A DNA stretch of 33,002 nt. It comes from Anaerolineales bacterium (GTDB lineage: Bacteria > Chloroflexota > Anaerolineae > Anaerolineales > Villigracilaceae). Within the stretch, counting starts at the first letter, position 1; each line of letters begins with the position of its first letter. Both the position numbers and the translations under genes were made by a program. Below, piece after piece: positions 2-12,698 of the stretch. The DNA lies in the NCBI GenBank assembly GCA_013360875.1, contig JABWAU010000030.1, positions 1 to 33,002 on the forward strand, written 5' to 3'. A model generated the notes under the pieces. The model saw only the letters and a list, made by a program, of their open reading frames with translations, made no database searches and was not told the DNA's origin.

Positions 2-1975
2 GCCGCGCAACAGATGTTGATCCGCGCGGAGGAATTGGGAATCGGTACAGCGTTCACCCGCGCCGATAACATGGTTCCGTGCAACATTGGCGGCGCAGGG
101 ATGTGCTGTAAGCAATGCGGCATGGGTCCCTGCCGATTGACGAAGAGCGGCGAAGTGGGCGTGTGCGGCGCGACGCTGGATACGATTCAGGCGCGCAATC
201 TGACGCGCGCCATCGCGGCGGGCGGCGCGGCGCACTCCGATCACGGGCGCGACATGGCGTTCCTGTTGAAGGCTACGGCAAATGGCGAAGCGGAGGGATA
301 TTCCATACGTGACGTTGCCAAACTGCGGATGGTCGCTTCGTACTATGACATCAAAATCGAGGGACGTTCGCCCGAAGAGATCGCCAACGATCTGGCTGAC
401 CTTTACATTTCCCAATTTGGTCAGCAGCGCGGCGAAGTGGTGCCAGCCAAACGCGCACCGAAGAAAAGGCAGCAGATCTGGCGCGAGCAAAACGTCATTC
501 CGCGCGGCGTGGATCGCGAAGTGGTGGAGGCGCTGCACCGCACCCACATCGGCGACGACCAGGACCCCGAACATATTTTGAATCACGCGATCAGAACAGC
601 ACTGGCAGACGGCTGGGCTGGTTCGATGATCGCCACCGACATCTCGGACATTTTGTTCGGCACCCCCGCGCCGATTGTGGGACAGGCAAATCTGGGCGTG
701 ATCAAAGAGGACATGGTGAACGTTGTCGTTCACGGTCACGAACCGAGCCTGAGCGAGATGATCGTTGCCGCTTCGCAGGACCCCGAAATTATCGAATACG
801 CCAAGGCGGCAGGCGCGAACGGCGTGAACCTTTCGGGAATTTGCTGCACTGCCAATGAAATCCTCATGCGGCAGGGCATCCCGGCGGCGGGGAACTTCCT
901 GCATCAGGAACTTGCCATCCTGACGGGCGCGGTGGAGGCGATGGTGGTGGACGTGCAGTGCATCATGCAGGCTTTGGTCGGCTTGGCGCAAAACTTCCAC
1001 ACCAAGATCATCACCACCTCGCCGAAGGTGCGCATCACGGGGGCGACACACATCGAATTCGACGAACACAAGGCATTGACCATCGCCAAGCAGATTTTGA
1101 AGACGGCGATTGACAACTTCAAGAACCGCGACCGCTCGAAGACGCACATTCCGCAAATCAAAGAGGACGTCATCCCCGGTTTCTCACACGAGTACATCAA
1201 CTACATGCTCGGCGGCTCGTACCGCGCTTCGTTCCGTCCGCTCAATGACGCCATTATGGCGGGACGCATCCGCGGGGTGGCGGCGATTGTGGGCTGCAAC
1301 AATCCGCGCTCGTCGCAGGATTATCTGCACAATGTCGTTGTGAAGGAGTTGCTCAAGAACGACGTACTCGTCGTCCAGACGGGGTGTGGCGCGATTGCCG
1401 CGGGGAAGTTGGGGCTGATGTTGGGCGAAGCAGGCTTGAGCGAAGTCGGAAGCGGGCTTCGGGAAGTCTGCGAAACGGTGGGCATCCCGCCCGTTCTCCA
1501 CATGGGTTCGTGCGTGGACAATACCCGCATCCTGACCGTGCTGACGCAAATGGTGGAGGAGGGCGGCTTGGGTGATGACATTGACCAGATTCCCGCCGTC
1601 GGTCTCGCGCCCGAATGGATGAGCGAGAAGGCGTTGGCGATTGCGACGTATTGCGTGGCTTCGGGCGCGTATGTCATCTTTGGCGGCGCTTCGCCCGTGA
1701 GCGGCATGCCGGACCGAGTCAGCGATAGCGACGCGGTGCTTCATTACATCAGCGAAGGTTGGGAGAAGATTTACGGCGGCAAGCTGGAGTTTATCCCCGA
1801 CCCGCAGAAGATGATCGAAGCGACGCTGGCGCACATTGACAAAAAGCGCGCTGCGCTCGGTCTGCCCGCGTGGGAGAAGGATAAGTTTGGGCGCAGCGGC
1901 GATTGGAGAATGCGCGAATTGGAGAAGTTGCCGTTGGAGAAGAAGCGAGAGGCGATTTACGGAGTAGTCGGATAG
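2..1975 (+). CDS. acsA: Anaerobic CO dehydrogenase catalytic subunit (CODH/ACS beta), 5' partial
   Basis: Nickel-iron CO dehydrogenase that interconverts CO2 and CO and feeds CO to acetyl-CoA synthase. The frame is open to the left edge, and the codons before the first ATG (position 14) align with the family N-terminus (an AAQQM..AEELGIGTAF stretch), so the start lies outside the window. Counting from that ATG, the cysteines that bind the D and B clusters are C23, C31, C32, C35, C40 and C50. C-cluster ligand motifs follow in order: VHGH, GICC, VDVQC, GCNN, TGCG and MGSCVDNTR. The length fits the CooS/AcsA family. The last residues (VVG) and the TAG stop lie inside a TAGTC-type repeat that fills the spacer to acsB. 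The AcsA rather than stand-alone CooS role is inferred from the adjacent acsB. No cooC or acsF nickel-insertion gene is in the window. Confidence 0.96.
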   Translation, partial: AAQQMLIRAEELGIGTAFTRADNMVPCNIGGAGMCCKQCGMGPCRLTKSGEVGVCGATLDTIQARNLTRAIAAGGAAHSDHGRDMAFLLKATANGEAEGYSIRDVAKLRMVASYYDIKIEGRSPEEIANDLADLYISQFGQQRGEVVPAKRAPKKRQQIWREQNVIPRGVDREVVEALHRTHIGDDQDPEHILNHAIRTALADGWAGSMIATDISDILFGTPAPIVGQANLGVIKEDMVNVVVHGHEPSLSEMIVAASQDPEIIEYAKAAGANGVNLSGICCTANEILMRQGIPAAGNFLHQELAILTGAVEAMVVDVQCIMQALVGLAQNFHTKIITTSPKVRITGATHIEFDEHKALTIAKQILKTAIDNFKNRDRSKTHIPQIKEDVIPGFSHEYINYMLGGSYRASFRPLNDAIMAGRIRGVAAIVGCNNPRSSQDYLHNVVVKELLKNDVLVVQTGCGAIAAGKLGLMLGEAGLSEVGSGLREVCETVGIPPVLHMGSCVDNTRILTVLTQMVEEGGLGDDIDQIPAVGLAPEWMSEKALAIATYCVASGAYVIFGGASPVSGMPDRVSDSDAVLHYISEGWEKIYGGKLEFIPDPQKMIEATLAHIDKKRAALGLPAWEKDKFGRSGDWRMRELEKLPLEKKREAIYGVVG

Positions 1976-2057
1976 TCAGATAGTCGAATAGTCTCATAGT
2001 TGCCGACTGACGACCATGAGACTAGCGACTATTAGACTAGAAGACCAGGAGACTACA
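1964..2057. repeat. Degenerate 8-bp tandem-unit inverted repeat, acsA-acsB spacer
   Basis: The left arm is four TAGTC units at about 8-bp spacing (GTAGTCGGA, TAGTCAGA, TAGTCGAA, TAGTCTCA). The right arm repeats the complement, GACTA or GACCA, at 7-9 bp spacing. The inner stem pairs TAGTCTCATAGTTG with CGACCATGAGACTA, with one mismatch and one wobble. The outer units also pair with small slips. The element includes the acsA stop codon (1973-1975), and its last units carry the AGGAG (2047-2051) that is the only plausible ribosome binding site for acsB. Confidence 0.85.
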
Positions 2058-2059
2058 CT

Positions 2060-4345
2060 ATGTCGAAATACATTGCTACTCGAGCCATGCGCGGCGCGAA
2101 TGCGCTGGTCACCGAAGCCGAATTGATGTTGAATAAGGCGTTGAAGGAGAAAGGCGCGGAGACGCCCGTCTCGTTCCCGAACACGGCGTATTATCTTCCG
2201 ACGATTCTTGGGATGACTGGCAAGGCGGTGGAAAAACTCGGCGATCTTCAGCCCGTGTTGAAATACGCGCGCGATTTGCTTCACCCCATCCCTGCCTTTT
2301 CGAAATGGACGCCGTATCTCGGCGAGACGCTCGACTCAGGCATGGCAACGCTGCTCGCGGCGGAAGCCATCGAAGCCATCCGCTTCGTTTATGGACTTCA
2401 GCCCGAACCCATGCCTGGATTCAAACTCGCGGGAGGTACATCGTTCACAAGTCCCGATGCGAAAGAGGGAGATAATGGCGATGGGCATCTAAACGGTCCC
2501 ATTGACGACATTCAACTGCGCTCATGGGGCATCCAACTCGTGGACGGTCGTATGCCGGGATTTGCCGCCATCGTCGGTTGCGCAAAATCGAACGAGGTCG
2601 CGGTCAAGATCGTGCGCGAGTTGCAGCGCCGCAACATCCTGTGCTTCCTCAGCGGCAACGTCAACGGGCGCAGCATCATCCATCAACTGATGGAAGAGGG
2701 CGTGGAACTCGGTTACGACACCTACACCGTTCCCTTCGGGACAGACACCATCTCCGCGATTTACGCTTTGGGATTCGCCACCCGCTCCGCCCTGACCTTC
2801 GGCGGACTCAAGCCCGGTCAATCGCGCGAGATCCTGCTCTACAACAAGGAGCGCGTCTTTGCCTTTGTGCTTGCCCTCGGCGAAGTGGACGATTTGAAGT
2901 ACGCCGCGGCGGCAGGCGCGATCAACTTCGGTTTCCCCGTCATTGCGGATACGGTCATCCCTGAAATTTTGCCGACGGGCGTGACCACCTACGAACATGT
3001 CGTCTCCATGCCGTTCAATCAAATCGAAGGCAAGGACGATTTGGAACGCGCCGAGCGGCTGGTTCAGAAGTGTATCGAAGTGCGCGGGGTCAAGGTCAAG
3101 GTCTCGAACGTGGATGTGCCTGTGCCTTATGGTTCTGCTTTCGAGGGCGAAGTTGTTCGCAAAGCGGATTTGCGTGTGGAGTTCGGCGGCAAGCACTCGC
3201 GCGCCTTCGAGTACCTGTACATGGCGAAGTTGGACGAAGTGACCGACGGCAAGATCGAAGTCATCGGACCGGACTTCTCACAAATCCCCGCACAAGGCTC
3301 GATGGATCTGGGTATTGTCATAAAGGTCGCGGGGAGGCAAATGCAGCAGGACTTCGAGCCGGTGCTGGAGCGGCAGGTGCATTACTTCGTCAACGGCGCG
3401 AGCGGAATCCAGCACGTCGGTCAGCGCGACATCGCCTGGATCCGCATCTCGAATGCCGCCGCAGACAAGGGCTTCAACCTCGAACACTTCGGCAAGATAT
3501 TGCACGCGCGCTTCCACGAGGACTTCGGCGCCATCGTGGACAAAGTGGAAGTGACCATCGTCACCGACCCCGCGTTGCACGCCGAGTGGCTGGAAAAGGC
3601 GCGCGCTGCCTACGACTACCGCAACAAACGCCTTGCCGACCTGACCGACGACAAGGTGGATGAGTTCTACTCCTGTACGCTTTGCCAGTCGTTCGCGCCG
3701 AATCACGTCTGCGTGGTCTCGCCCGAACGGCTCGGTCTGTGCGGCGCGTACAACTGGCTGGACTGCAAAGCCTCCTACAACATCAACCCGACGGGACCCA
3801 ACCAGCCCATCAAACTCGGCAAGCAACTCGATGACCGAAAGGGTTACTGGCAGGGGACGAACGATTACGCCAAAATCGGCTCGCATGGCGTGGTACAGGA
3901 AGTCTCGATGTATTCCATCATGGAAAACCCGATGACCGCCTGCGGTTGTTTCGAGTGCATCGTCATGCTCATCCCCGAAGCCAACGGCGTGATGGTCGTC
4001 TCGCGGGAGGATACTTCCATGACTCCCGCAGGCATGACCTTCTCGACCCTGGCGGGTATCGCGGGCGGCGGCTTGCAAACCCCGGGCGTGATGGGCGTGG
4101 GCAAGTACTACCTCATCAGCCCCAAGTTCATCTCCGCCGACGGCGGTTTCAAGCGCGTGGTGTGGATGTCGTCTGTGTTGAAGCAGACCATGAACGATGA
4201 GTTCAAAGCGGTCTGCGAACGCGAAGGCGACCCCGATCTGCTCGACAAGATTGCCGACGAAAGGAATGTCACAACGGTTGATGAACTCCTTGCCTGGCTG
4301 GAGGCGCACAATCATCCCGCCATGGCGATGGAGCCGATGTTCTAA
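2060..4345 (+). CDS. acsB: Acetyl-CoA synthase, CODH/ACS alpha subunit
   Basis: Joins the methyl group from the corrinoid protein, CO from AcsA and CoA into acetyl-CoA at the nickel-iron A cluster. The A-cluster ligands are visible: C539, C542, C551 and C561 (YSCTLC..NHVC..GLC), then the C628-G629-C630 motif that holds the two-metal site. At 761 residues it is close to the bacterial enzyme (about 730). The N-terminal CO-channel domain, the middle domain and the C-terminal A-cluster domain are all present. The ATG at 2060 has AGGAG eight bases upstream, inside the repeat filling the spacer. It lies 84 bases after acsA. A bacterioferritin gene follows rather than the corrinoid protein genes. 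Confidence 0.97.
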   Translation: MSKYIATRAMRGANALVTEAELMLNKALKEKGAETPVSFPNTAYYLPTILGMTGKAVEKLGDLQPVLKYARDLLHPIPAFSKWTPYLGETLDSGMATLLAAEAIEAIRFVYGLQPEPMPGFKLAGGTSFTSPDAKEGDNGDGHLNGPIDDIQLRSWGIQLVDGRMPGFAAIVGCAKSNEVAVKIVRELQRRNILCFLSGNVNGRSIIHQLMEEGVELGYDTYTVPFGTDTISAIYALGFATRSALTFGGLKPGQSREILLYNKERVFAFVLALGEVDDLKYAAAAGAINFGFPVIADTVIPEILPTGVTTYEHVVSMPFNQIEGKDDLERAERLVQKCIEVRGVKVKVSNVDVPVPYGSAFEGEVVRKADLRVEFGGKHSRAFEYLYMAKLDEVTDGKIEVIGPDFSQIPAQGSMDLGIVIKVAGRQMQQDFEPVLERQVHYFVNGASGIQHVGQRDIAWIRISNAAADKGFNLEHFGKILHARFHEDFGAIVDKVEVTIVTDPALHAEWLEKARAAYDYRNKRLADLTDDKVDEFYSCTLCQSFAPNHVCVVSPERLGLCGAYNWLDCKASYNINPTGPNQPIKLGKQLDDRKGYWQGTNDYAKIGSHGVVQEVSMYSIMENPMTACGCFECIVMLIPEANGVMVVSREDTSMTPAGMTFSTLAGIAGGGLQTPGVMGVGKYYLISPKFISADGGFKRVVWMSSVLKQTMNDEFKAVCEREGDPDLLDKIADERNVTTVDELLAWLEAHNHPAMAMEPMF

Positions 4346-4350
4346 TTCTC

Positions 4351-4397
4351 GTTGGCATGTTGGAAAGTCCCAAGTTTGAACGTTTCAACGTGCCAAC
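4351..4397. repeat. Inverted repeat of GTTGG/CCAAC units, acsB-bfr spacer
   Basis: The left arm GTTGGCATGTTGGAAAGT (4351-4368) pairs with ACGTTTCAACGTGCCAAC (4380-4397), with two G-T wobbles and one mismatch. The right side continues to 4412 as TTTCAACG, TGCCAACT, TTTCAACT, TGCAACG, an 8-bp period. It has the same style as the other spacer repeats of this operon. An AGGAG ribosome binding site for bfr follows, outside the repeat. Confidence 0.75.
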
Positions 4398-4439
4398 TTT
4401 TCAACTTGCAACGATGAGCGAAGCGAATAGGAGAAAAAC

Positions 4440-4916
4440 ATGAAAGGCGATGAGAAACTCATCAAAGTCCTGAACGACCTATTGGCGGACGAACTGACCG
4501 CCATCAGCCAGTATATGGTGCATTCCGAGATGTGTGATAACTGGGGCTACGGCAAACTCCACAAGGATATCGAAAAGAAAGCCATTGATGAGATGCACCA
4601 TGCCGAGTGGCTCATCGGGCGCATCCTGTTCCTCGAAGGGATTCCGATTGTTTCCAAACTCAACGAGATGAAGATCGGCAAGAATGTGCAGGAAATGGTC
4701 AGCAACGACCAGGAGGCAGAGCTGGGCGCGATCAAAGCCTATAACGCGGCTATTGCGCTGGCGGGCGAAGTGGACGATCAGTCCACGGGCGACCTGCTTC
4801 TGACCATCCTCAAGATGGAGGAGGGACATCACGACTGGGCGAAGAAACAGCGCACGCAGATCGAGCAGATGGGGTTGGAGAACTACCTGAGCAATCAGGC
4901 GGGTGAAGAGGAGTAA
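4440..4916 (+). CDS. bfr: Bacterioferritin
   Basis: A four-helix ferritin that forms a 24-subunit iron-storage shell, binds haem between subunits and oxidises Fe(II) at a di-iron centre. All ferroxidase ligands are at the same numbers as in E. coli Bfr: E18, E51, H54, E94, E127 and H130. The haem-ligand methionine M52 is also present. The 158-residue length is standard, and AGGAG stands before the ATG. It sits inside a Wood-Ljungdahl operon whose enzymes are rich in iron-sulfur clusters, so a role in iron supply or in removing oxygen and peroxide from these oxygen-sensitive enzymes is plausible (inference). Confidence 0.93.
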   Translation: MKGDEKLIKVLNDLLADELTAISQYMVHSEMCDNWGYGKLHKDIEKKAIDEMHHAEWLIGRILFLEGIPIVSKLNEMKIGKNVQEMVSNDQEAELGAIKAYNAAIALAGEVDDQSTGDLLLTILKMEEGHHDWAKKQRTQIEQMGLENYLSNQAGEEE

Positions 4917-4930
4917 CCCCCATCCCCCGC

Positions 4931-4964
4931 CTTCCCCCAAATCGAAATGCGAATTTGGGGGAAG
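4931..4964. repeat. 12-bp perfect hairpin, bfr-CBS spacer
   Basis: CTTCCCCCAAAT (4931-4942) and ATTTGGGGGAAG (4953-4964) pair perfectly around a 10-base loop. The 3' arm holds the purine-rich stretch GGGGGAAGGGG, the only ribosome-binding-like sequence before the CBS gene, so folding could mask it. It could be a repetitive element, as in the neighbouring spacers. Confidence 0.75.
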
Positions 4965-4978
4965 GGGCTTTCGATGCC

Positions 4979-5479
4979 ATGACCGAACAAAAACTCGTCC
5001 GTGACCTGATGACCGTCGGTGTGCCGACCTGCAAATGGGACTCTCCCATCGTGGACATCGCGCGCTTCCTTTTGGAGAAGAACGTCGAGGCGATGTGCGT
5101 GCTCGATGCGGAGGGACACGGCATCGGCGTGGTGGGAGCGGATGAACTCGTCTGGGCGTACGCGCGGGAAGGGTATGAGAAATTGACCGCCGAAGACATT
5201 ATGAGCGAAGGCGTCCCTGAACTGCCGCCGGATATATCCCTTGCGGTCGCGGCGCAGATGATGAAGGACAGGGGCATCCGGGTCGCGTACATGCTGCACA
5301 ATTCGGCGGGAATTATTTATCCCGCGGCTTATATTTCATATCGTCATATTTTGCGTCACATGGCGGCAAAGGATGAAAGTGAATTGAAGGATCTGGGTCT
5401 CGCGGCGGAACGTAAATCGCCGATCGAGCAGTTCATCGAAAGAAGAGACGAGGCGAGGAGAAAAGCAGGATTAATTTGA
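4979..5479 (+). CDS. Two-CBS-domain protein
   Basis: A 166-residue protein made of a tandem CBS pair. The first unit is about residues 5-58 (VRDLMTVGVPTCKWDSPIVD..), the second about 66-130 (AEDIMSEGVPELPPDISLAV..), followed by a charged tail. CBS pairs usually bind adenine nucleotides or SAM and regulate a partner. No catalytic domain is fused here. The ATG at 4979 is preferred over the in-frame TTG at 4955, which lies inside a hairpin and has no ribosome binding site. Its place between bfr and acsD suggests an energy- or cofactor-sensing role for the operon products, but nothing in the sequence names the partner. Confidence 0.85.
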   Translation: MTEQKLVRDLMTVGVPTCKWDSPIVDIARFLLEKNVEAMCVLDAEGHGIGVVGADELVWAYAREGYEKLTAEDIMSEGVPELPPDISLAVAAQMMKDRGIRVAYMLHNSAGIIYPAAYISYRHILRHMAAKDESELKDLGLAAERKSPIEQFIERRDEARRKAGLI

Positions 5480-5494
5480 TGTCGTTGCAAATGG

Positions 5495-5617
5495 TGGTCG
5501 AGTAGAACCGTGTTTGTCGGCTCGTATCGAGACCACCCGAAGCAATCCTCGCCAACAGGAGATTGCTTCGCTCCGTTGGTCTCGATATGCTCACAACGAA
5601 CGCTCGCTACTCGACCA
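5495..5617. repeat. 123-bp nested palindromic element, CBS-acsD spacer
   Basis: Three nested arm pairs share one centre. TGGTCGAGTAG (5495-5505) pairs with CTACTCGACCA (5607-5617), perfect over 11 bp. ATCGAGACCA (5526-5535) pairs with TGGTCTCGAT (5577-5586), perfect over 10 bp. CGAAGCAATC (5538-5547) pairs with GATTGCTTCG (5561-5570), perfect over 10 bp. The GGTCTCGATA..CTCGCTACTCGACCA half resembles a palindromic intergenic repeat I recall from actinobacterial and other high-GC genomes. This resemblance is from memory. It is probably a dispersed REP-like element. Confidence 0.85.
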
Positions 5618-5656
5618 ACTCTGCTCACAATGACATAGGTGAACCAAGGAGATACC

Positions 5657-6601
5657 ATGCCCATAGAAATTCCAAAAGACAAATGGCCCGGAAGTATTCG
5701 CACCGTCACCATCGGCGCGACGAGCGCGGACGGCGGTACGCGCTCCAAAACCGTAACGCTTGGGGGGTATACAACCCTGCCCTTCATGCACTTCGAAGCG
5801 CCCATGTCGAATCCGCCCGTCATTGCGATCGAGATCAAATCGCGCAAACCTGACGACTGGTCGCCGCTGCTGTTCGAAGCGTGGGGCGATGTAATGAACG
5901 ACCCGGCTCAATGGGCGAAGAAAGCCGAGGAAACGGGAGCAGACCTGCTCGTCCTCGCGCTGACCGTTGAAGATTCAGTCGAGGATGCGGTCAAAGCGGT
6001 CAAATCCGTTTTGAGCGCGAGCGGACTCCCGCTCATCGTCTGGGGTCCGGGGCAGGCGGAGAAGGATAACGAACTGCTTGTCCCAATTGCCGAAGCGACG
6101 AAGGGCGAACGTCTCGTGCTTGGCATTTGCGAAGATAAAAACTACCGCACCATCGTCGCGACCGCGATGGCGAACGGTCATCTCGTGCAGGCGCGCACGC
6201 CGATGGATGTGAACCTCTCCAAGCAGTTGAACATTCTCATCAGCGACATGGGCATGCCCAAAGACCGCATCCTCATGGACCCGACGACGGGCGCGCTCGG
6301 CTATGGAATCGAATACGGTTACTCCGTGATGGAACGTCTGCGACTCGCTGCACTGCAGGGCGACGCGATGACCCAATCGCCGATGATCGTCACGCCTGGC
6401 TTCGAAGCGTGGAAAACGAAAGAGGCGAAGGTTGGCGAAGGTGTTCCCGAAGCGTGGGGCGATTGGAAAGCGCGCGCGATTAATTGGGAAACGCTCACCG
6501 CGATGGCATTGATCGAATCGGGCGCGGATGTGGTTGTGTTGAGGCATCCTGAGTCCGTGAGGCGTGTGCGTGAGGCAATCGGTGAATTGGTGATGGCTTG
6601 A
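5657..6601 (+). CDS. acsD: Corrinoid iron-sulfur protein small subunit (CODH/ACS delta)
   Basis: A TIM-barrel subunit that pairs with AcsC to carry the corrinoid methyl group between the AcsE methyltransferase and AcsB. At 314 residues it has family-typical segments: PPVIAIEIKSRKPDDW near the N-terminus, GADLLVLALTVED, LILGICEDKN-like and LMDPTTGALGYGIEYGYSVMERLRLAAL. The ATG at 5657 is preferred over the in-frame GTG at 5639, because AAGGAG stands six bases before it. The family has no metal ligands in this subunit; the corrin is shared with AcsC. The acsD-acsC spacer carries an unusual two-hairpin and tandem-repeat structure. Confidence 0.95.
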   Translation: MPIEIPKDKWPGSIRTVTIGATSADGGTRSKTVTLGGYTTLPFMHFEAPMSNPPVIAIEIKSRKPDDWSPLLFEAWGDVMNDPAQWAKKAEETGADLLVLALTVEDSVEDAVKAVKSVLSASGLPLIVWGPGQAEKDNELLVPIAEATKGERLVLGICEDKNYRTIVATAMANGHLVQARTPMDVNLSKQLNILISDMGMPKDRILMDPTTGALGYGIEYGYSVMERLRLAALQGDAMTQSPMIVTPGFEAWKTKEAKVGEGVPEAWGDWKARAINWETLTAMALIESGADVVVLRHPESVRRVREAIGELVMA

Positions 6602-6616
6602 TTTGTTGTTGCGTAA

Positions 6617-6660
6617 GCGACGTTCTCTAACGTCGCAGTATGCGTTAGAGAACGCATACT
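6617..6660. repeat. Two adjacent hairpins with complementary loops, acsD-acsC spacer
   Basis: The first hairpin is GCGACGTT-CTCT-AACGTCGC (6617-6636), the second AGTATGCGTT-AGAG-AACGCATACT (6637-6660). Both stems are perfect and they abut directly. The loops CTCT and AGAG are complementary. Alternatively GTTCTCTAACG (6622-6632) can pair with CGTTAGAGAAC (6643-6653) over 11 bp, which excludes both short hairpins. Confidence 0.85.
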
Positions 6661-6715
6661 ACGCAAAGATAGAACGCATACTGCGCAAAGATAGAACGCA
6701 TACTGTGCAAAGATA
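6650..6715. repeat. Three tandem 22-bp repeats upstream of acsC
   Basis: Three direct copies (6650-6671, 6672-6693, 6694-6715) of a unit starting GAACGCATACT and ending GCAAAGATA differ only at two bases in the middle (AC, GC, GT). The first 11 bases of each unit match the 3' arm of the second hairpin at 6637-6660, so the single 5' arm could pair with any of three 3' arms. The array ends nine bases before the acsC start, and AGGAG (6715-6719) overlaps its last base. Confidence 0.9.
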
Positions 6716-6724
6716 GGAGATAAC

Positions 6725-8035
6725 ATGGCTTTGTCAGGAATCCAAATCTACAAACTCCTCCCGCAAACCAACTGCAAAGAATGCGGCTTCCCCACCTGTC
6801 TCGCGTTTGCGATGAAACTTGCCGCCAAGCAAGTGGAACTCGGCGCGTGTCCGTACGTCAGCGAGGAATCGAAAAAGCAACTCGCCGAGTCTGCCGCGCC
6901 GCCGATTCGACTCGTCGCGCTCAAAGCCGATGGAACCGAAGTCAAAGCGGGCAACGAAGTCTGCATGTTCCGTCACGAAAAGACCTTTTACAACAAGCCT
7001 GGTCTTTTCATCCGCGTCAAAGCCTCCGACCCTGATCTTGCAAAGAAAGTTGCGGAAGCCGATGCGTACAAGGTCAATTACGTCGGGATGGATTTTTCGA
7101 TTGACGGCTTCGCGGTTCTTGCGGATGCTGATTTAGGTAATGCGATCAAAACGATTCGGACTGCGACGAAACGTCCGTTGATTTTGATGGGCAACCCCGC
7201 CTCGCTTCAAACTGGACTTTCAGCCTGCGGAGGCGAGACCCCGCTCCTCTACGCCGCCGACGCCTCCAACGCCGACGCGATGACAGACCTCGCGAAGACT
7301 CACAAAACCGCCCTCGTCGTCAAAGCGGACTCGCTCGACGCCCTCGCCGACTTGACTCAAAAGATTCAAGCGAAGGGAGTCGAAGACCTCGTCCTCGACC
7401 CGTCGCCAAAAACGTTGAGCGAGTCATTAATACGCAACACGCAACTTAGAAGACTCGCCCTCAAGAACACACGCGCCCTCGGTTATCCCATCATCGCCTT
7501 CCCCTGTGACGCGAAAGACGAAGGCATTGCCGCCGCACAGGCGATTGCGAAATACGCGGGCTTCGTGGTGTTGAGCGAGTTCAAGCCCGAATTGCTCTAT
7601 CCATTGCTCGTCCTGCGCGAGAACATCTACACCGACCCGCAGAAACCGATTCAAGTCCAGCCTGGCGTGTACGAAATCAACGCGCCCAAACCCGAAAGCC
7701 CCGTGCTGGTCACGACTAACTTCAGCATCACGTACTTCGCCGTTGCCAACGAAGTCGAAGGGTCTGGACTGCCAGCATGGCTCGTGGTAACCGATGCGGA
7801 AGGCATGTCCGTGCTGACGGCGTGGGCGGCGGGCAAATTCGACGCGGAGCGCATCGCCAAAGCCATCAAGGGATTCGATGTCGCAAGTAAGGTTAGCAGG
7901 AAGCGCGTTGTATTGCCCGGTCACGTGGCAGTGCTTTCCGGCGAAGTCGAAGAGGAACTCCCGGATTGGGAAGTCCGCGTCGGTCCGCGCGAGGCGGTGG
8001 ACCTGCCCGCGTTTATGAAACAAGCCTTGAATTAG
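6725..8035 (+). CDS. acsC: Corrinoid iron-sulfur protein large subunit (CODH/ACS gamma)
   Basis: Carries the [4Fe-4S] cluster and most of the cobamide contact of the corrinoid protein that shuttles the methyl group to acetyl-CoA synthase. The N-terminal cluster motif is CKECGFPTC..AC (C-x2-C-x4-C-x16-C) at about residues 18-42. A TIM-barrel domain follows, and then a C-terminal corrin-binding Rossmann-like domain with the family stretch VLVTTNFSITYFAVANEVEGSG. The 436-residue length is normal. AGGAG stands five bases before the ATG. The TAG stop is the first part of the palindrome filling the next spacer. Confidence 0.96.
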   Translation: MALSGIQIYKLLPQTNCKECGFPTCLAFAMKLAAKQVELGACPYVSEESKKQLAESAAPPIRLVALKADGTEVKAGNEVCMFRHEKTFYNKPGLFIRVKASDPDLAKKVAEADAYKVNYVGMDFSIDGFAVLADADLGNAIKTIRTATKRPLILMGNPASLQTGLSACGGETPLLYAADASNADAMTDLAKTHKTALVVKADSLDALADLTQKIQAKGVEDLVLDPSPKTLSESLIRNTQLRRLALKNTRALGYPIIAFPCDAKDEGIAAAQAIAKYAGFVVLSEFKPELLYPLLVLRENIYTDPQKPIQVQPGVYEINAPKPESPVLVTTNFSITYFAVANEVEGSGLPAWLVVTDAEGMSVLTAWAAGKFDAERIAKAIKGFDVASKVSRKRVVLPGHVAVLSGEVEEELPDWEVRVGPREAVDLPAFMKQALN

Positions 8036-8087
8036 TCAAAAGTCGAAGGTCAAAGGTCGCGCGACTTTTGACCTTCGACCCTCGACT
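8034..8087. repeat. 54-bp near-palindrome of heptamer units, acsC-acsV spacer
   Basis: Two 26-bp arms (8034-8059 and 8062-8087) flank a two-base centre. They read as regular heptamers: GTCAAAA, GTCGAAG, GTCAAAG, GTCGCGC, then GACTTTT, GACCTTC, GACCCTC, GACT. Only a few positions mispair, and all are purine-type differences that allow G-T wobble in RNA. The element overlaps the AG of the acsC stop codon and ends two bases before the acsV ATG. It leaves no room for a separate ribosome binding site. Confidence 0.9.
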
Positions 8088-8089
8088 CC

Positions 8090-10078
8090 ATGAACCACAC
8101 CCTCACCTTCACCCACGACGAGAAGCAAGCCAGCGTCACCGTCCCAACCAACACCCTGCTGACAGACGCCGCGCATCTCGCAGGCATTGACATCACGCAG
8201 CCGTGCGGCGGGCAGGGACGTTGCGGTCGTTGCGCGGTGATGGTGACGGAGGGAACTGTCAGGCGAAGAAGCACACTACGCCTTTCCCCTGCTGATATCG
8301 AACAGGGATACGCGCTCGCCTGTCAAACCGTCGTCGAAGGCGATGTTGAAATCTTTATTCCGCCCCAGGAGAAGATCGAAAGAAGACTCACCACCGACCG
8401 CGTCGTCGCGGAGGTCACGGTTCCCGCCGACTACGAATATCCGTTCGCGCAAACCGTCCGCCGCGTGCATTTGACTTTGACTCCGCCAAGCATGGACGAC
8501 CAGACCGACGACTGGTCAAGATTGCAGACAGCGCTGCGCTTACAGCACCGCATCGAAAACCCGACCTGTTCCCTGCCCCTGCTCCGAAAAATCGGCTCCA
8601 CGCTGCGGCAGGACGACTGGCGCGTCACTGCCATCATCGAAACGAGCAGACCATCCGACCACGCCACTACCCGACCATCCGACCACACGACTATTCGACT
8701 AATAGACTTACTCCCCGGTCATGTGGACGAATATTCCCCGCTCTGGGGCTGCGCGATTGACATCGGGACAACAACAGTAACCTTGTGGCTGGTGGATTTG
8801 GTGACGGGACAGGTCAGGGCGCAGGTGGCGGAATACAACGGTCAGATCGCGCGCGGCGAGGACGTGATTTCGAGAATCATCTATGCCAATAAAAACGGCG
8901 GAGGAGATGAATTACGTCAGCGCGTGTCAGGGACAATCAACAGCCTGCTCGAACTGGCTTGTAAACGAATCAAGTTGCCCCAAGGCAAAGTGACTCCCGA
9001 CCAGGTTGTCAAAGCGACCATCGCGGGCAATACCACGATGATGCACCTGCTGCTCGGCATTCCCGCATCGAGCATTCGCCTCTCACCCTTTGTCCCGACG
9101 GTCAATCATCCACCAATGATGACGGGGCGCGATATCGGCTTGAACGTCAACCCCGAAGCGGCAGTGGATTGTCTGCCCGGGGTGGCGAGTTACGTCGGCG
9201 CAGACATCACAGCAGGCGTATTGTCCTCAGGACTCGATAGCGCGGAGAACGTGACTCTCTTTCTGGATGTCGGCACAAACGGCGAGACAGTACTGGGCAA
9301 TCGCGATTGGCTGGTCACGTGCGCGTGTTCGGCAGGACCCGCCTTCGAGGGCGCGGGCGTGGTCAACGGGATGCGGGCAACGCAGGGCGCCATCGAGGAA
9401 ATATGGATCAACGGCGAAACGCTCGAGCCGACGTACCGCGTCATCGGCGGAGGCAAGCCGAAGGGAATCTGTGGAAGCGGGTTGATATCGCTTCTATCGG
9501 AGGCGTTCATCACGGGAGTCATTGACAAGGGTGGAAATGTCAATTTGTCGGCGCGCAGTCCCCGGGTCCGCGAGGGAGCGCATGGCGGGGAGTATGTCGT
9601 GGCTTGGGGCGCGGAGACGGAGTCGGGCGAGGATATCGTCATCACGCGTGTTGACATTGACAACCTGCTGCGCGCCAAAGCCGCCATCTACGCGGGCTTT
9701 ACTGTGCTGGCGGAAAACGTCGGCATCCCGCTTGAAACGGTGGACAAAGTGCTGGTGGGAGGCTCATTTGGAAAATATATCAACGTCGAGAAGGCGGTGC
9801 AAATTGGCTTGCTGCCCGATATGGATTGGTCGCGCTTCGAGTTTTTGGGCAATACGTCGGTGAAGGGCGCGTATTACGCGTTGCTCGATTGGAGGAAGCG
9901 CGAGCGAATTACCGAGATTGCGAAGCGCATGACATACATTGAATTGTCGGCTGACAATAGTTTTTATGAAGCGTTCACATCGGCTCTATTTCTGCCGCAC
10001 ACGGATTTGAGCAAGTTCCCGAGTGTGGTGGAGGCTTTGTCGTCAAAAATCGAAGGTCGCACGTCATTCGACCGATAA
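8090..10078 (+). CDS. acsV: Reductive activator of the corrinoid iron-sulfur protein (RACo)
   Basis: An ATP-driven reductase that returns the corrinoid protein from inactive Co(II) to Co(I). The N-terminal [2Fe-2S] ferredoxin domain has ligands C39, C45, C48 and C78. A linker and middle region run to about residue 215. The ASKHA ATPase domain begins at C221-A-I-D224-I-G-T-T-T, with a second DVGTNGET loop, CGSG and GGSFGKY motifs. The 662-residue length is slightly above the roughly 630 I recall for characterised RACo. Residues 187-207 are encoded by a repeat-like DNA stretch (RPSDH occurs twice), and the last dozen residues are encoded by the arm of another repeat. No Shine-Dalgarno sequence precedes the ATG at 8090. 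Confidence 0.95.
   Translation: MNHTLTFTHDEKQASVTVPTNTLLTDAAHLAGIDITQPCGGQGRCGRCAVMVTEGTVRRRSTLRLSPADIEQGYALACQTVVEGDVEIFIPPQEKIERRLTTDRVVAEVTVPADYEYPFAQTVRRVHLTLTPPSMDDQTDDWSRLQTALRLQHRIENPTCSLPLLRKIGSTLRQDDWRVTAIIETSRPSDHATTRPSDHTTIRLIDLLPGHVDEYSPLWGCAIDIGTTTVTLWLVDLVTGQVRAQVAEYNGQIARGEDVISRIIYANKNGGGDELRQRVSGTINSLLELACKRIKLPQGKVTPDQVVKATIAGNTTMMHLLLGIPASSIRLSPFVPTVNHPPMMTGRDIGLNVNPEAAVDCLPGVASYVGADITAGVLSSGLDSAENVTLFLDVGTNGETVLGNRDWLVTCACSAGPAFEGAGVVNGMRATQGAIEEIWINGETLEPTYRVIGGGKPKGICGSGLISLLSEAFITGVIDKGGNVNLSARSPRVREGAHGGEYVVAWGAETESGEDIVITRVDIDNLLRAKAAIYAGFTVLAENVGIPLETVDKVLVGGSFGKYINVEKAVQIGLLPDMDWSRFEFLGNTSVKGAYYALLDWRKRERITEIAKRMTYIELSADNSFYEAFTSALFLPHTDLSKFPSVVEALSSKIEGRTSFDR
8649..8710. 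repeat. In-frame GACYA octamer repeat inside acsV
   Basis: About eight units of 6-9 bp run in tandem: GACCATCC, GACCACGCC, ACTACCC, GACCATCC, GACCACAC, GACTATTC, GACTAATA, GACTTA. This is the same unit type as the right arm of the acsA-acsB spacer element (GACCATGA, GACTATTA, GACTAGAA). It encodes acsV residues 187-207, between the ferredoxin/linker part and the ATPase domain, and keeps the frame open. No TAGTC-type left arm is present. Confidence 0.8.
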
Positions 10079-10096
10079 GACTTTTGACCTTTGACT
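10042..10096. repeat. Inverted repeat spanning the acsV 3' end
   Basis: GTCAAAAATCGAAGGTC (10042-10058) lies in the acsV coding end and pairs with GACTTTTGACCTTTGAC (10079-10095) in the spacer. Thirteen of 17 positions are exact and the rest are A/G differences. The sequence closely matches the acsC-acsV element at 8034-8087, so the two are members of one family. The stop codon (10076-10078) lies between the arms. AAAGGAGG for acsE starts just after the repeat. Confidence 0.8.
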
Positions 10097-10112
10097 AATA
10101 AAGGAGGCACGC

Positions 10113-11036
10113 ATGTATATCATCGGCGAGAACATCCACATCATCTCTGAGAAGGTGAAAGAGGCATTAGCCAACCGCGACCGCGAGTTCTTCATGGACC
10201 TGGCGGTGCGGCAGGTGGAGGCGGGGGCAAAGGCAATTGACATCAATCTCGGTCCGCGCAAGAAGGATTGGGCGGAGGTCTTCCCGTGGATCGTGGAAAC
10301 CATCGAAACGGTCGTGGACGTGCCGCTTTCGATTGACACCACCAACGTGGACGGCATGGAAGCCGCGCTCAAAAAAATCACCAAGGCGCAGCCGATTCTT
10401 AACTCCACCTCCGCCGAGCCGGAACGGTTGGAGAAGGTGCCGCTGCTGGCAAAGAAGTACAACGCCAAGCTCATCGCGTTGACCATGCGCTCGGAGGGCA
10501 TTCCCGTCGAAGCGGACGCGCGCGTCAACATTGCTATTGAGACTTTGATCCCGCGCATGATGGAGATTGACCTCCCGATGGAAAACCTCATCATTGACCC
10601 GCTCGTACTCACCGTGAGCGGATGCCAGCAATACTGCCCGCATCTCATCGAGGCGGTACGGACCTTGCAATATGCCTGGGACCCCGCGCCGATGATTTCG
10701 GTCGGGTTGAGCAACGTTTCCAACGCGGTGCCGAACGAGAATCGTCCGCTCATCAACCGCGTCTACCTCGCCATGTTGATGGGCGTCGGCTTGCAGATGA
10801 TGATCGCCAACCCGTTCGACGAAAAGCAGAACGATGTCATTAGATGGATAGAGACAAAGGACACTAGCAATCCGCTTGCCGCTGTCTACAATAAGATTGC
10901 AGAACGGATTTGCGCGGGCGAGGAACCGCAAATGGAAGACTTCGACTTGTCCGACCCCGAACAGTCCGCGATTTGGAAGACGACGCAGATCCTGCTGAAC
11001 AAAGTGATCTATGCGGATTCGTATTTGATGAATTGA
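10113..11036 (+). CDS. acsE: Methyl-THF:corrinoid iron-sulfur protein methyltransferase
   Basis: Transfers the methyl group of 5-methyltetrahydrofolate to cob(I)amide on AcsCD. It is a pterin-binding TIM barrel. Family motifs are AIDINLGPRKKDW at about residues 40-52, PLSIDTTN, ILNSTSAE, NLIIDPLVLTVSG and the GLSNVSNAVPNE segment, which contains the asparagine near the pterin N5 in the Moorella enzyme. At 307 residues it is some 45 longer than Moorella AcsE (262). The extra part is the acidic C-terminal tail from about residue 262. TAAAGGAGG gives a strong ribosome binding site at the ATG. Confidence 0.95.
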   Translation: MYIIGENIHIISEKVKEALANRDREFFMDLAVRQVEAGAKAIDINLGPRKKDWAEVFPWIVETIETVVDVPLSIDTTNVDGMEAALKKITKAQPILNSTSAEPERLEKVPLLAKKYNAKLIALTMRSEGIPVEADARVNIAIETLIPRMMEIDLPMENLIIDPLVLTVSGCQQYCPHLIEAVRTLQYAWDPAPMISVGLSNVSNAVPNENRPLINRVYLAMLMGVGLQMMIANPFDEKQNDVIRWIETKDTSNPLAAVYNKIAERICAGEEPQMEDFDLSDPEQSAIWKTTQILLNKVIYADSYLMN

Positions 11037-11037
11037 G

Positions 11038-11104
11038 CAGTTGATGGTTGGTAGTTGACAGTTGGCAGCAAAACCGCCAACCGTCAACCGATAACCGTCA
11101 ACTG
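11038..11104. repeat. Heptamer-unit inverted repeat, acsE-metVF spacer
   Basis: The left arm (11038-11068) reads as exact heptamers GTTGATG, GTTGGTA, GTTGACA, GTTGGCA. The right arm (11075-11104) reads CCAACCG, TCAACCG, ATAACCG, TCAACTG. The arms pair over about 30 bp with a few mismatches around a six-base loop. It strongly resembles the short tandemly repeated repetitive (STRR) heptamer sequences described in heterocystous cyanobacteria. GGAGG for metVF follows immediately. Confidence 0.9.
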
Positions 11105-11119
11105 ATATTGGAGGAACCC

Positions 11120-12607
11120 ATGCCCATCTTCACCCCTGGTCGCCGCTGGCAGCCACCCTACCTGCCCTTCAAGCGTGAACCGCTTAATCGGCGGGCGCTC
11201 GCGGCTCTCGAAAAAGCCATCAAGGGACCGCTATTTGGATGCCGCATGTGCGGCAACTGCCTGCTTCAGGAAACCGCATTCATCTGCCCAATGGAATGCC
11301 CGAAGGGCGAGCGCAACGGGCCATGCGGCGGCTCCACTAAAGAGCATTGCTACGTGGATGAGACCCGTCCGTGCATCTGGTACAAGATTTACGAACGCTC
11401 ATTCGCAATGGGACGCGAGGAAAAATTGCTCGAGGTCCTTCCGCCTCTCGATTGGGACAAGGTCGGCACGGAAACGTGGGGTGATGTGTTCGGCAGGGTA
11501 CGGGAAATCGGCGCCGGCAAAGTCTTTAGCGGCTTGCTTTTCAAACCCGCAGAAGTCCGCTACAAGACGTGGGATGACATCTTCGAACCCATCCGCGAAC
11601 CGGAATGGTGGCAGGGAGATAATAAATACCATGCGCCGAAGTACACCGAACCCGTCTCCGAACTCGAGCGCAGGCTCAAGGCAGGCGAATTCGTCGTGAC
11701 CGCGGAGGTCGCTCCGCCGCTCACCGTCAAGACCGACAAGTTGTTCAAGAACATCCAGATGGTCAAGCCCTACGTCGCTGCGATCAACTTCACGGATAAC
11801 CCCTCCGCCACGCCGCGTATGTCCTCCCAGGCTTGCTCGAAGATGGCGATCGAGCACGGCGCGGAACCTGTCATGCAGATCGCGGCGCGCGACCGAACCC
11901 GTGTCGGCCTTCAATCCGAAGTGATGGGCGCAAGCGCGATGGGCATCCGAAACATCCTCTGCCTCTCAGGCGACTCGATGAAGATGGCGCCCAGCCCGCG
12001 CGGGCGGATGGACGTGATTGACATCGATTCCATCCAGATGTTGTGGGTCCTGCGCCGCATGCGCGACGAGGGCAGGTACATGGACGGGCGCGAGATCAAG
12101 TTCCCGCCTCAATACTTCCTCGGGGCCGCGGCAAGCCCCTTCGCATCCGAACCGAAATTCCAGGCGCTGCGCGAACACAAGAAGGTGAACGCTGGCGCGC
12201 AATTCTTCCAGACCAACCTGGTCTACGACGTGGAGCATCTGGAAATCTGGCTGAACGAACTTGCCAAACGGAATATCCTCGACAAGGTCTTCATTCTGAT
12301 TGGCATCACGCCTCTCAAGACCTTCAAGATGGCAAAGTACATGAACGACGAGGTGCCGGGCGTGTTTATCCCCGAACCCCTGATGAAACGCATGGAAGCC
12401 GCCGAAAAAGCGGGCAACGCACAGGAGGAGGGCGTGCAAATCGCGCTCGAACTGATCGAAAAGATCAAGAAGTTCGAAGGTCAGGGCGTGAACGGTCTGC
12501 ACATCATGGCAGTCGGCTGGGAGGAGATCGTCCCGCGCATCGTCACGGAAGGCGGCGTTTTACCTAAGGGCTTCCACCAACCTGAACTCGAGAAAGTGCC
12601 TGCTTAG
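11120..12607 (+). CDS. metF: Methylene-THF reductase, MetV-MetF fusion
   Basis: Reduces methylene-THF to methyl-THF, the methyl donor for AcsE. The N-terminal 90 residues form a MetV-like (MTHFR_C, PF12225-type) cysteine domain with C41, C44, C47, C56, C60, C69, C77 and C85 and the NGPCGG signature. From about residue 190 (FVVTAEVAPPL) to the end is the FAD-binding MetF barrel, with RDRTR and NILCLSGD motifs. In Moorella these are two subunits, MetV and MetF; here they are one 495-residue chain. The ATG at 11120 is chosen because GGAGG stands six bases upstream. The longer in-frame start at 11048 would read through the repeat. The electron partner is not obvious; an HdrC-like gene lies 660 bases downstream. 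Confidence 0.92.
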   Translation: MPIFTPGRRWQPPYLPFKREPLNRRALAALEKAIKGPLFGCRMCGNCLLQETAFICPMECPKGERNGPCGGSTKEHCYVDETRPCIWYKIYERSFAMGREEKLLEVLPPLDWDKVGTETWGDVFGRVREIGAGKVFSGLLFKPAEVRYKTWDDIFEPIREPEWWQGDNKYHAPKYTEPVSELERRLKAGEFVVTAEVAPPLTVKTDKLFKNIQMVKPYVAAINFTDNPSATPRMSSQACSKMAIEHGAEPVMQIAARDRTRVGLQSEVMGASAMGIRNILCLSGDSMKMAPSPRGRMDVIDIDSIQMLWVLRRMRDEGRYMDGREIKFPPQYFLGAAASPFASEPKFQALREHKKVNAGAQFFQTNLVYDVEHLEIWLNELAKRNILDKVFILIGITPLKTFKMAKYMNDEVPGVFIPEPLMKRMEAAEKAGNAQEEGVQIALELIEKIKKFEGQGVNGLHIMAVGWEEIVPRIVTEGGVLPKGFHQPELEKVPA

Positions 12608-12612
12608 ATTCG

Positions 12613-12645
12613 AGGTGACAGTCGCTTCGGAAGTGACTGTCACCT
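12613..12645 (+). terminator. Strong hairpin after metVF, possible terminator or repeat
   Basis: AGGTGACAGTCGCTT and AAGTGACTGTCACCT pair over 15 bp with a single G-T wobble around a three-base CGG loop. Only TTTAT follows, so the U-tract is weak. It may end or attenuate the Wood-Ljungdahl transcript, or be another of the operon's palindromic spacer elements. Confidence 0.5.
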
Positions 12646-12698
12646 TTATCCTCCCCCAAAAGGGAAGTCTTTCGAGCAAGGCAAGCCAGGAGAAATCA

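Follow-up and report, generated by a model that had tools for sequence, protein, structure and literature searches.

Word-built hairpins in a Wood-Ljungdahl operon of an Anaerolineales bacterium as probable members of a dispersed class of heptamer and octamer arrays

The stretch of DNA analyzed here (33,002 nt; hereafter, the window) is the entire contig C11 of a 3.99-Mb draft genome of an Anaerolineales bacterium. It begins with a Wood-Ljungdahl operon whose encoded domains follow in the order Prismane/CODH, CdhC/ACS, ferritin-like, CBS, CdhD, FeS+CdhD, RACo, pterin-binding, and MTHFR. From the Pfam domains and general knowledge of the pathway, we take the respective genes to be acsA (CODH), acsB (ACS), acsD (CdhD), acsC (FeS+CdhD), acsV (RACo), and acsE (pterin-binding). 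Several spacers of this operon contain hairpins in which one arm is a tandem array of a degenerate seven- or eight-letter word and the other arm repeats its complement. These hairpins are very probably not specific for the operon, but are local members of a genome-wide, dispersed class similar to the short tandemly repeated repetitive (STRR) sequences of cyanobacteria. A search of the window with Rfam gave no match at the gathering score.

According to the original prediction, all nine consecutive spacers from acsA to the GNAT gene carry a hairpin-forming element. Each spacer was folded as RNA together with 200 dinucleotide-preserving shuffles, and eight of nine fold clearly better than the shuffles (z from -3.09 to -7.33; Table 1). 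In the ninth, at 10042, the signal is weak, with 11 of 200 shuffles folding as well; for the spacer at 4346-4439 this number is 2 of 200. The period-7/8 array score is passed by four spacers, at 1965 and 4374 (period 8) and at 8035 and 11039 (period 7; positions from Tandem Repeats Finder, TRF). The GTCRAAR word is also present at 10042, but its clean units are too few for the array score. Counting it as an arguable fifth, the expectation of four or five spacers built of degenerate 7-8-mers is borne out, whereas the spacers at 4917, 5490, 6602, and 12608 hold other, longer palindromes that do not reach the array score. The element predicted at 1964 is indeed an octamer hairpin, but it is not purely a spacer feature, as it begins within the final acsA codons and reaches over the acsB ribosome-binding region.

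Table 1. Operon, hairpins, and arrays in the window. Folding z-scores refer to the spacer coordinates given in the fourth column.
Feature	Position	Strand	Folded spacer (z)	Location and evidence
Wood-Ljungdahl host operon	14-12607	+		acsA to MTHFR; GNAT gene follows
Octamer hairpin TRGTCNNN	1960-2058	.	1976-2059 (-4.58)	left arm 1965-2000, right arm ~2016-2055; folding, TRF
Octamer hairpin, GTTGNAAN type	4352-4413	.	4346-4439 (-3.09)	acsB / ferritin-like gene spacer; array score, folding
C-run/G-run palindrome, CTTCCCCC..GGGGGAAG type	4917-4977	.	4917-4977 (-3.65)	another dispersed palindrome, no 7/8-mer array
Long palindrome, like a miniature inverted-repeat transposable element (MITE), core GAAGCAATC..GATTGCTTCG	5480-5640	.	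5490-5638 (-7.33)	no 7/8-mer array
Double palindrome GTTCTCTAACG / CGTTAGAGAAC, then 22-bp tandem repeat	6611-6716	.	6602-6724 (-4.51)	acsD-acsC spacer
Heptamer hairpin GTCRAAR	8034-8087	.	8036-8089 (-6.54)	left arm 8035-8058, right arm ~8063-8087; occupies whole acsC-acsV spacer
Single-arm octamer array TRGTCNNN	8642-8708	-		inside acsV gene, RACo linker region
Weak heptamer hairpin GTCRAAR	10042-10097	.	10040-10112 (-1.97)	left arm in final acsV codons, right arm in acsV-acsE spacer
Heptamer hairpin GTTGRYR / RYCAACC	11038-11107	.	11037-11119 (-6.15)	acsE / metF-like gene spacer; array score, folding
Single palindrome GGTGACAGTC..GACTGTCACC	12613-12645	.	12608-12698 (-3.69)	no array

Similar arrays are found throughout the genome. 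A sample of 353,706 b, consisting of the window and 20 stretches not selected for arrays (6 of 20 on contigs with known GTCRAAR matches), contains 10 arrays of period 7 and 7 of period 8, with 0-1 at each of periods 4-6 and 9-11 and two at period 12; Markov shuffles of this sample yield no arrays at any period. Eight of these 17 arrays overlap called open reading frames (ORFs), some of which may be spurious. The same periods dominate in 80 loci of relatives gathered by a scan for AcsB (1.36 Mb; 85 period-7 and 45 period-8 arrays, 0-7 at periods 4-6 and 9-13, and 29 at period 14, probably 2x7) and in a further count (40 and 32 vs 0-2 at other periods, with 27 at period 14). Arrays were called by a strict scorer; a laxer detector that also flagged periods 5 and 6 was discarded. 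Loci L001-L030, L131-L143, and L161, being duplicates or extensions, were excluded from the counts of hairpin order, arm identity, unit runs, array scores, and shuffles. Two tandem GTCRAAR units match 63 times in the genome of the window (reversed control, 0) and three TRGTC units 85 times (control, 3); several words coexist within one genome. Runs of three or more units mostly lie outside ORFs of at least 150 aa (164/202 in four genomes).

Outside the operon, arrays occupy 12 of 129 spacers of 40-300 nt, co-directional (5/66), convergent (4/34), and divergent (3/29). Density is therefore unequal among spacers, the operon being richer both in arrays (4/9 vs 12/129; Fisher p 0.011) and in a coarser folding test with slightly longer stretches and 60 Markov shuffles (z < -3 in 5/9 operon spacers vs 6/59 co-directional spacers elsewhere; Fisher p 0.004), though the operon was chosen because it is conspicuous. 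The suggested operon-specific role in RNA stability or relative translation has to be abandoned as the main cause, since arrays occur genome-wide, in every gene context including convergent and divergent spacers and gene interiors, and are absent from the same spacers in some relatives: in L053, L060, L074, L128, and L130 the acsA-acsB spacer is 9-10 nt long and has no hairpin. Of the two refuting observations named in the original prediction, repeat-free spacers in relatives are thus seen, whereas an equal density over all spacers is not. The suggested likeness to the cyanobacterial STRR repeats is upheld, and the arrays form a genome-wide dispersed family.

The word hairpins of the four commonest families follow an order rule. 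In close hairpins of these families (TRGTCNNN, GTANACAN, GTCRAAR, and RGTRAWT), the word W stands first and its complement Wrc second in 93 of 93 cases (27, 38, 15, and 13, respectively). These hairpins come from co-directional (57), convergent (7), and divergent (10) spacers and from called ORFs (13, some maybe spurious), with 6 unassigned; 63 of them belong to four sampled genomes, where each site was counted once per genome, and a few are orthologous between genomes. Because the orientation label of a family is set by its own hairpins, one hairpin per family is uninformative. As a control, opposite neighbors 61-400 nt apart in all loci show mixed orders, 7 to 5 (Fisher p 5e-5 vs close hairpins), and two Markov-shuffled copies of the 3.3 Mb sample contain neither a close hairpin nor a 61-400 nt pair. 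Single-arm runs of at least two units are more numerous than hairpins and occur in both orientations (137 '+' and 121 '-'); the shuffles put the chance expectation for two-unit TRGTC runs at about 11-22.

Two accounts of the order were rejected. Within ORFs, W lies on the template strand in 8/9 TRGTC and 6/6 RGTRAWT cases, as stop codons in W would predict; however, the GTCRAAR word is free of stop codons (T always precedes C) and is nevertheless ordered in 15/15 hairpins. A GT-first rule for all words was dropped, since GTANACAN contains GT as well as AC, which deprives simple counts of meaning for this word. Plasmids of Fremyella diplosiphon (339 kb) contain merely 10 period-7/8 arrays at a score of at least 14, too few for an order count.

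The two arms of a hairpin are independent of each other in composition. In the four families, arms of the same hairpin have the same identity to each other as arms re-dealt at random (0.766/0.770, 0.846/0.858, 0.905/0.889, and 0.916/0.909), and in genome G019 (6 hairpins) it is 0.808, slightly under the re-dealt range of 0.812-0.866. Foldback copying and RNA covariation were rejected on this ground. Degenerate letters occupy fixed places in the word, and unit variants are mixed at these positions, drawn from a limited palette. Unit runs common to different sites show no clear excess over within-array shuffles; in G019, shared runs of 3, 4, and 5 units number 20, 11, and 7 vs 18.1, 8.5, and 3.6 in shuffles. 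The proposal of a self-spreading family is thus not supported as regards copying from site to site, whereas the lineage bursts described below support spreading as such. Nor is there a conserved unit of 20-40 nt with an end tag, as in repetitive extragenic palindromic (REP) sequences and their hairpin doublets (REPINs): loops and flanks are little conserved. Words shared by loops are slightly longer than those of shuffled loops (means 5.18 and 5.35 vs 4.63 and 4.27), and flanks carry 0.41-0.49 bit per column (noise 0.05), but they adjoin degraded units.

Slippage has left its own trace. Likeness of TRGTC units within vs across arrays is 0.37/0.22 in G066, 0.26/0.15 in G061, and 0.04/0.04 in the genome of the window (G000), and the corresponding values for G019 units are 0.31/0.12. 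The likeness of neighbors in the TRGTC arrays of two genomes and in the long G019 arrays is the result of slippage. In contrast, neighboring GTANACAN units in G066 resemble each other as little as units of different sites do (0.12 vs 0.11; 0.25 at lag two). The near-identical units typical of phase-variable repeats are not seen, the long G019 arms being the exception. At L229 (G019:C8, 12964-13179), one hairpin arm consists of 19 near-identical units and the other of 7 different ones; here, each arm seems to have undergone slippage on its own.

The closest named relatives by AcsB are metagenome-assembled genomes of Anaerolineales/Chloroflexi. Tandem GTCRAAR pairs occur in 26 of 61 relatives: 15/18 in the genus, 10/19 in the rest of the family, and 1/24 outside it. 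Two of these cases are not clean, namely G054, the single genome outside the family (1 match vs 14 in the control), and G032 (3 vs 3). Of 301 genomes of the phylum, 12 carry three tandem GTANACAN units; all of these belong to the family, of which 18 members were tested. Matches reach 1085 (overlapping) in G019, and the control gave none. Triple TRGTC occurs in six genomes 113, 3, 1, 1, 188, and 200 times (controls 2, 0, 0, 0, 1, and 30). The genomes with 113 and 3 matches form a pair 92% alike in acsB, which argues that words spread in lineage bursts.

At a given site, one word may be replaced by another. The acsA-acsB spacer of relatives contains TRGTC octamers, heptamers of the GGTAATT, GAAAGAR, CGATATT, or ACGNAAC type, other palindromes, or merely 9-10 nt, and the acsC-acsV spacer is similarly variable. 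In two species pairs 92-94% alike in acsB, most of these operon spacers differ. Thus, all three compared spacers hold different sequences in L054 and L055. In L072 and L111 (94%), four of five palindromic operon spacers have been replaced, and the remaining one, between acsD and acsC, changed its length by one octamer unit (slippage). Of seven palindrome-free spacers of the same pair, #6, #11, #12, and #15 are almost unchanged and #8 is partly so, while #9 and #14 differ; five further ones (2-23 nt) were compared by length alone. In another stretch of about 14 kb, this pair retains a MITE-like spacer and four terminator-like spacers, whereas one array-like spacer has changed for the most part and one palindrome-free divergent spacer differs throughout. 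Hence, fast replacement is a property of some spacers rather than of all palindromes. Between L072 and L111, the first ~60 nt of acsV, which adjoin the replaced acsC-acsV spacer, have diverged far more than the remainder of the gene, so that the replacement may have extended into it.

Spacers are not the only sites: a TRGTCNNN array lies within acsV, in a region that is 8 aa longer in the window than in array-bearing relatives. Another example is provided by a heme operon (ALAD, HemD, porphobilinogen deaminase, GlutR, URO-D, and an amino-oxidase-type gene), where in-gene arrays stand at the same places in several species while, as judged by eye, the words differ between them. At L150 (G061:C44, 9008-16114), ~7 kb of this operon hold twelve scored arrays or arms, which represent four words or more, several of them in ORFs; their density exceeds that of other stretches sampled from G061.

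The palindromes of the window that are not built of words differ in their distribution. Like the word arrays, the TGTCATTGCGAG..GAAGCAATC-type palindrome at 5480-5640 sits in varying acs spacers of relatives (L052, L060, L067, L070, and L072). The 22-bp unit (x3.1, 95% matches) at 6649-6716 follows the GTTCTCTAACG palindrome, and its exact consensus occurs once, here, in 734 kb of the genome. The search pattern for GGTGACAGTC..GACTGTCACC likewise has its sole copy in these 734 kb at 12613-12645.

Cyanobacteria have for decades been known to carry heptamer repeats, and the original STRR papers reportedly dealt with the heterocystous strains Calothrix PCC 7601 and Nostoc PCC 7120. Seven words from the literature on Nostoc, Beggiatoaceae, and Xanthomonas/Nostoc were searched for in the 3.3 Mb: TTGTCAG x3 and TAACTGA x2 occur once each, the other five were not found in this sample, and reversed controls gave 0. 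According to the cited papers, heptamer repeats occur in cyanobacteria, Beggiatoaceae, Bacteroidetes, and Xanthomonas, and polymerase slippage, transposition, or translational roles have been proposed, with no accepted origin (PMC4679880, PMC2408588, PMC4692102); slippage was put forward by Mrazek, according to PMC4679880 and PMC4692102. In the Nostoc hyp operon, six intergenic regions also contain dispersed repeats (PMC2408588).

The arrays described here share with STRR the tandem 7-mers above chance, their dispersion, the mostly intergenic location, and the coexistence of several words per genome (PMC2408588, PMC4692102), and one Nostoc word, TTGTCAG x3, is present once, whereas the other tested Nostoc words were not found in our sample. 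They differ in the host (Anaerolineales/Chloroflexi instead of a heterocystous cyanobacterium), in the octamers, which are about as common as heptamers, in degenerate letters at fixed places, and in the order rule and word swapping at a constant site, which the consulted passages of PMC2408588 and PMC4692102 do not describe for STRR. The TAACTGA repeats of Beggiatoaceae, Cyanobacteria, and Bacteroidetes are also heptamer direct repeats near gene starts (PMC4679880), and our ACTGRTN family (24 runs of at least two units) is of the same word type, exact TAACTGA x2 being found once; however, there is one dominant word and one indirect repeat there (PMC4679880), as opposed to many words and frequent hairpins here. 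The GGGAATC / GGGGAYT repeats of Xanthomonas and Nostoc lie between the same genes in related strains, vary widely in length and sequence, and are sometimes inverted (PMC4692102). Still, that word is G-rich and of the quadruplex type, GGGGATT x2 was not found in our 3.3 Mb, and replacement of a site by other words is unreported in the consulted passages of PMC4692102.

More distant systems resemble the arrays in single traits. REP/REPIN sequences with their REP-associated tyrosine transposases (RAYTs) are short intergenic palindromes in many copies (PMC3116915, PMC3733652), and Y1 transposases are present here, but there is no conserved end tag or fixed unit, the arms are independent, and the sites are not evident copies. 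The reverse transcriptase DRT10, like telomerase, makes tandem short repeats of one strand, with a 9-nt unit (PMC12632851); its cDNA is protein-primed, however, and genome entry is undescribed in the consulted passages of that paper. The tandem repeats of Borgs likewise evolve rapidly and arise independently, but are described as direct repeats (PMC9879509). The arrays are of the same broad kind as the known heptamer repeats, in another phylum. Relative to the cited literature, the apparent novelties are octamers nearly on a par with heptamers, degenerate letters at fixed places, the order rule, the independence of the arms, and the swapping of words. Among the papers listed by the literature searches, which cover few subscription sources, none describes such arrays in Anaerolineae or Chloroflexi.

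Our preferred explanation, to which we assign a probability of roughly 45%, is that the hairpins are arrays of the STRR kind written by strand-specific addition of words to 3' ends and then modified by slippage. In this scenario, W would be written 5' to 3' onto the free 3' ends of a break or gap. Joining of two 3' ends that each carry a run of W would give flank-(W)n-junction-(Wrc)m-flank, while extension of one end alone would produce a single arm. Arrays would then grow and homogenize by slippage, with changes in unit number, and selection would remove insertions from essential codons, leaving those in spacers and protein loops, where a hairpin may be used secondarily. The order rule together with the independent arms fits the writing of W on two facing 3' ends, each with its own run, followed by joining. 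End addition as the mechanism is tentative and less likely than not, the step from pattern to enzyme being one we infer. It is unlikely, but thinkable by analogy with the telomere-like repeat synthesis of DRT10, which gives no direct support (PMC12632851), that a telomerase-like activity writes degenerate 7-8 nt words onto the two 3' ends at a DNA break or gap before these are joined, that the words are repair scars, and that the cyanobacterial heptamers come from the same activity.

Several observations weigh against this explanation. The strand specificity expected of a telomerase- or DRT10-like writer is perfect in the four families but is broken by minor ones. Among 115 hairpins found de novo (124 before those of one locus with ends at most 30 nt apart were merged), 505 word-sharing pairs agree in order and 36 disagree; disagreements mostly involve ACG/CGT and AAAGTGG-type words, and small counts of them appear in a second tally as well. 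As units are more alike within arrays, part of the arm independence could stem from later slippage. In-gene arrays of acsV are mostly equal in length to array-free homologs, which simple insertion does not predict and which suggests a potentially gradual history in coding DNA. A clean empty site with its junctions was not found. The presence of many words in one genome would call for many templates.

The enzymes provide little guidance, since none of RVT_1, Ku, and Y1 tracks the arrays convincingly. A reverse transcriptase domain (RVT_1) was not found in the array-rich G009 and G014 (57 and 63 GTCRAAR matches), although a telomerase- or DRT10-like origin would require it in every array-rich genome. 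Ku is present in 2/61 relatives, both outside the family; as it was not found in the family, joining is unlikely to proceed by classical non-homologous end joining. Across 37 family members, GTCRAAR counts show a weak positive correlation with RVT_1 (Spearman 0.30, p 0.07) and with Y1 transposases (0.33, p 0.048), both correlations resting on counts of one word. The genome of the window has two RVT_1 matches, at G000:C201 26419-27120 and C30 5422-6135, in open frames of 402 and 367 aa.

Among the alternatives, the one that survives best is the copying of ready-made hairpins by REP- or MITE-like transposition (Y1/RAYT or similar), with the order inherited from a founder and the units and loops scrambled by slippage and mutation. 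It would account for the fixed order, the lineage bursts, and the occupation of the same spacers by unrelated palindromes, and it agrees with the Y1 correlation and the slightly longer words shared by loops. However, this loop excess comes at least partly from degraded units, the modest flank signal lies beside such units, shared unit runs stay near the shuffle level, and single-arm runs exceed hairpins even if some TRGTC pairs are due to chance. Y1 transposases, found in 57/61 relatives and in three copies in the genome of the window, are too common to discriminate, and their numbers do not mark array-rich genomes (G016 has 6 Y1 and 0 GTCRAAR matches). On balance, we regard this origin as rather unlikely.

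Selection for intercistronic RNA hairpins, acting on mRNA stability or cistron insulation, could build and keep the palindromes with the words being incidental. The good folding of eight operon spacers, the higher density in the operon, and the retention of a palindrome in the spacer of many relatives while its word changes would agree with such selection. Yet variable positions do not covary between arms, the order rule extends to convergent and divergent spacers as well as to called ORFs, single-arm and in-gene arrays lack the partner arm, five relatives do without a hairpin between acsA and acsB, and the operon was picked as conspicuous, which makes this cause improbable. Slightly more doubtful still are tandem inward-facing sites for a DNA- or RNA-binding protein, where binding would keep the core and leave variable letters neutral. 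An invariant core, variable letters at set places, and the constant inward orientation are what such sites would show; many unrelated words per genome, word swaps at one site, single-arm runs in both orientations, and arrays within genes of unrelated function are not. Ordinary polymerase slippage at 7-8 nt as the local maker of arrays is very improbable and already insufficient alone: the periods, the one-unit change between L072 and L111, and the homogenized long arms of G019 speak for it, but the same word at many unrelated sites, the second complementary arm, and the order rule are left unexplained, and adjacent GTANACAN units in G066 lack the expected likeness. Copying between sites is not supported by shared unit runs or loops.

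In summary, any origin proposed for such arrays has to meet three quantitative constraints, namely the fixed order, the independent arms, and the exchange of words at a given site, all of which can be tested in any array-rich genome. Genome annotation should take into account that arrays extend into gene ends and protein loops. Even if end addition proves wrong, the three constraints speak against plain slippage or simple copying acting alone. If words are indeed added to free DNA ends, bacteria would possess a repair pathway that writes repeats.

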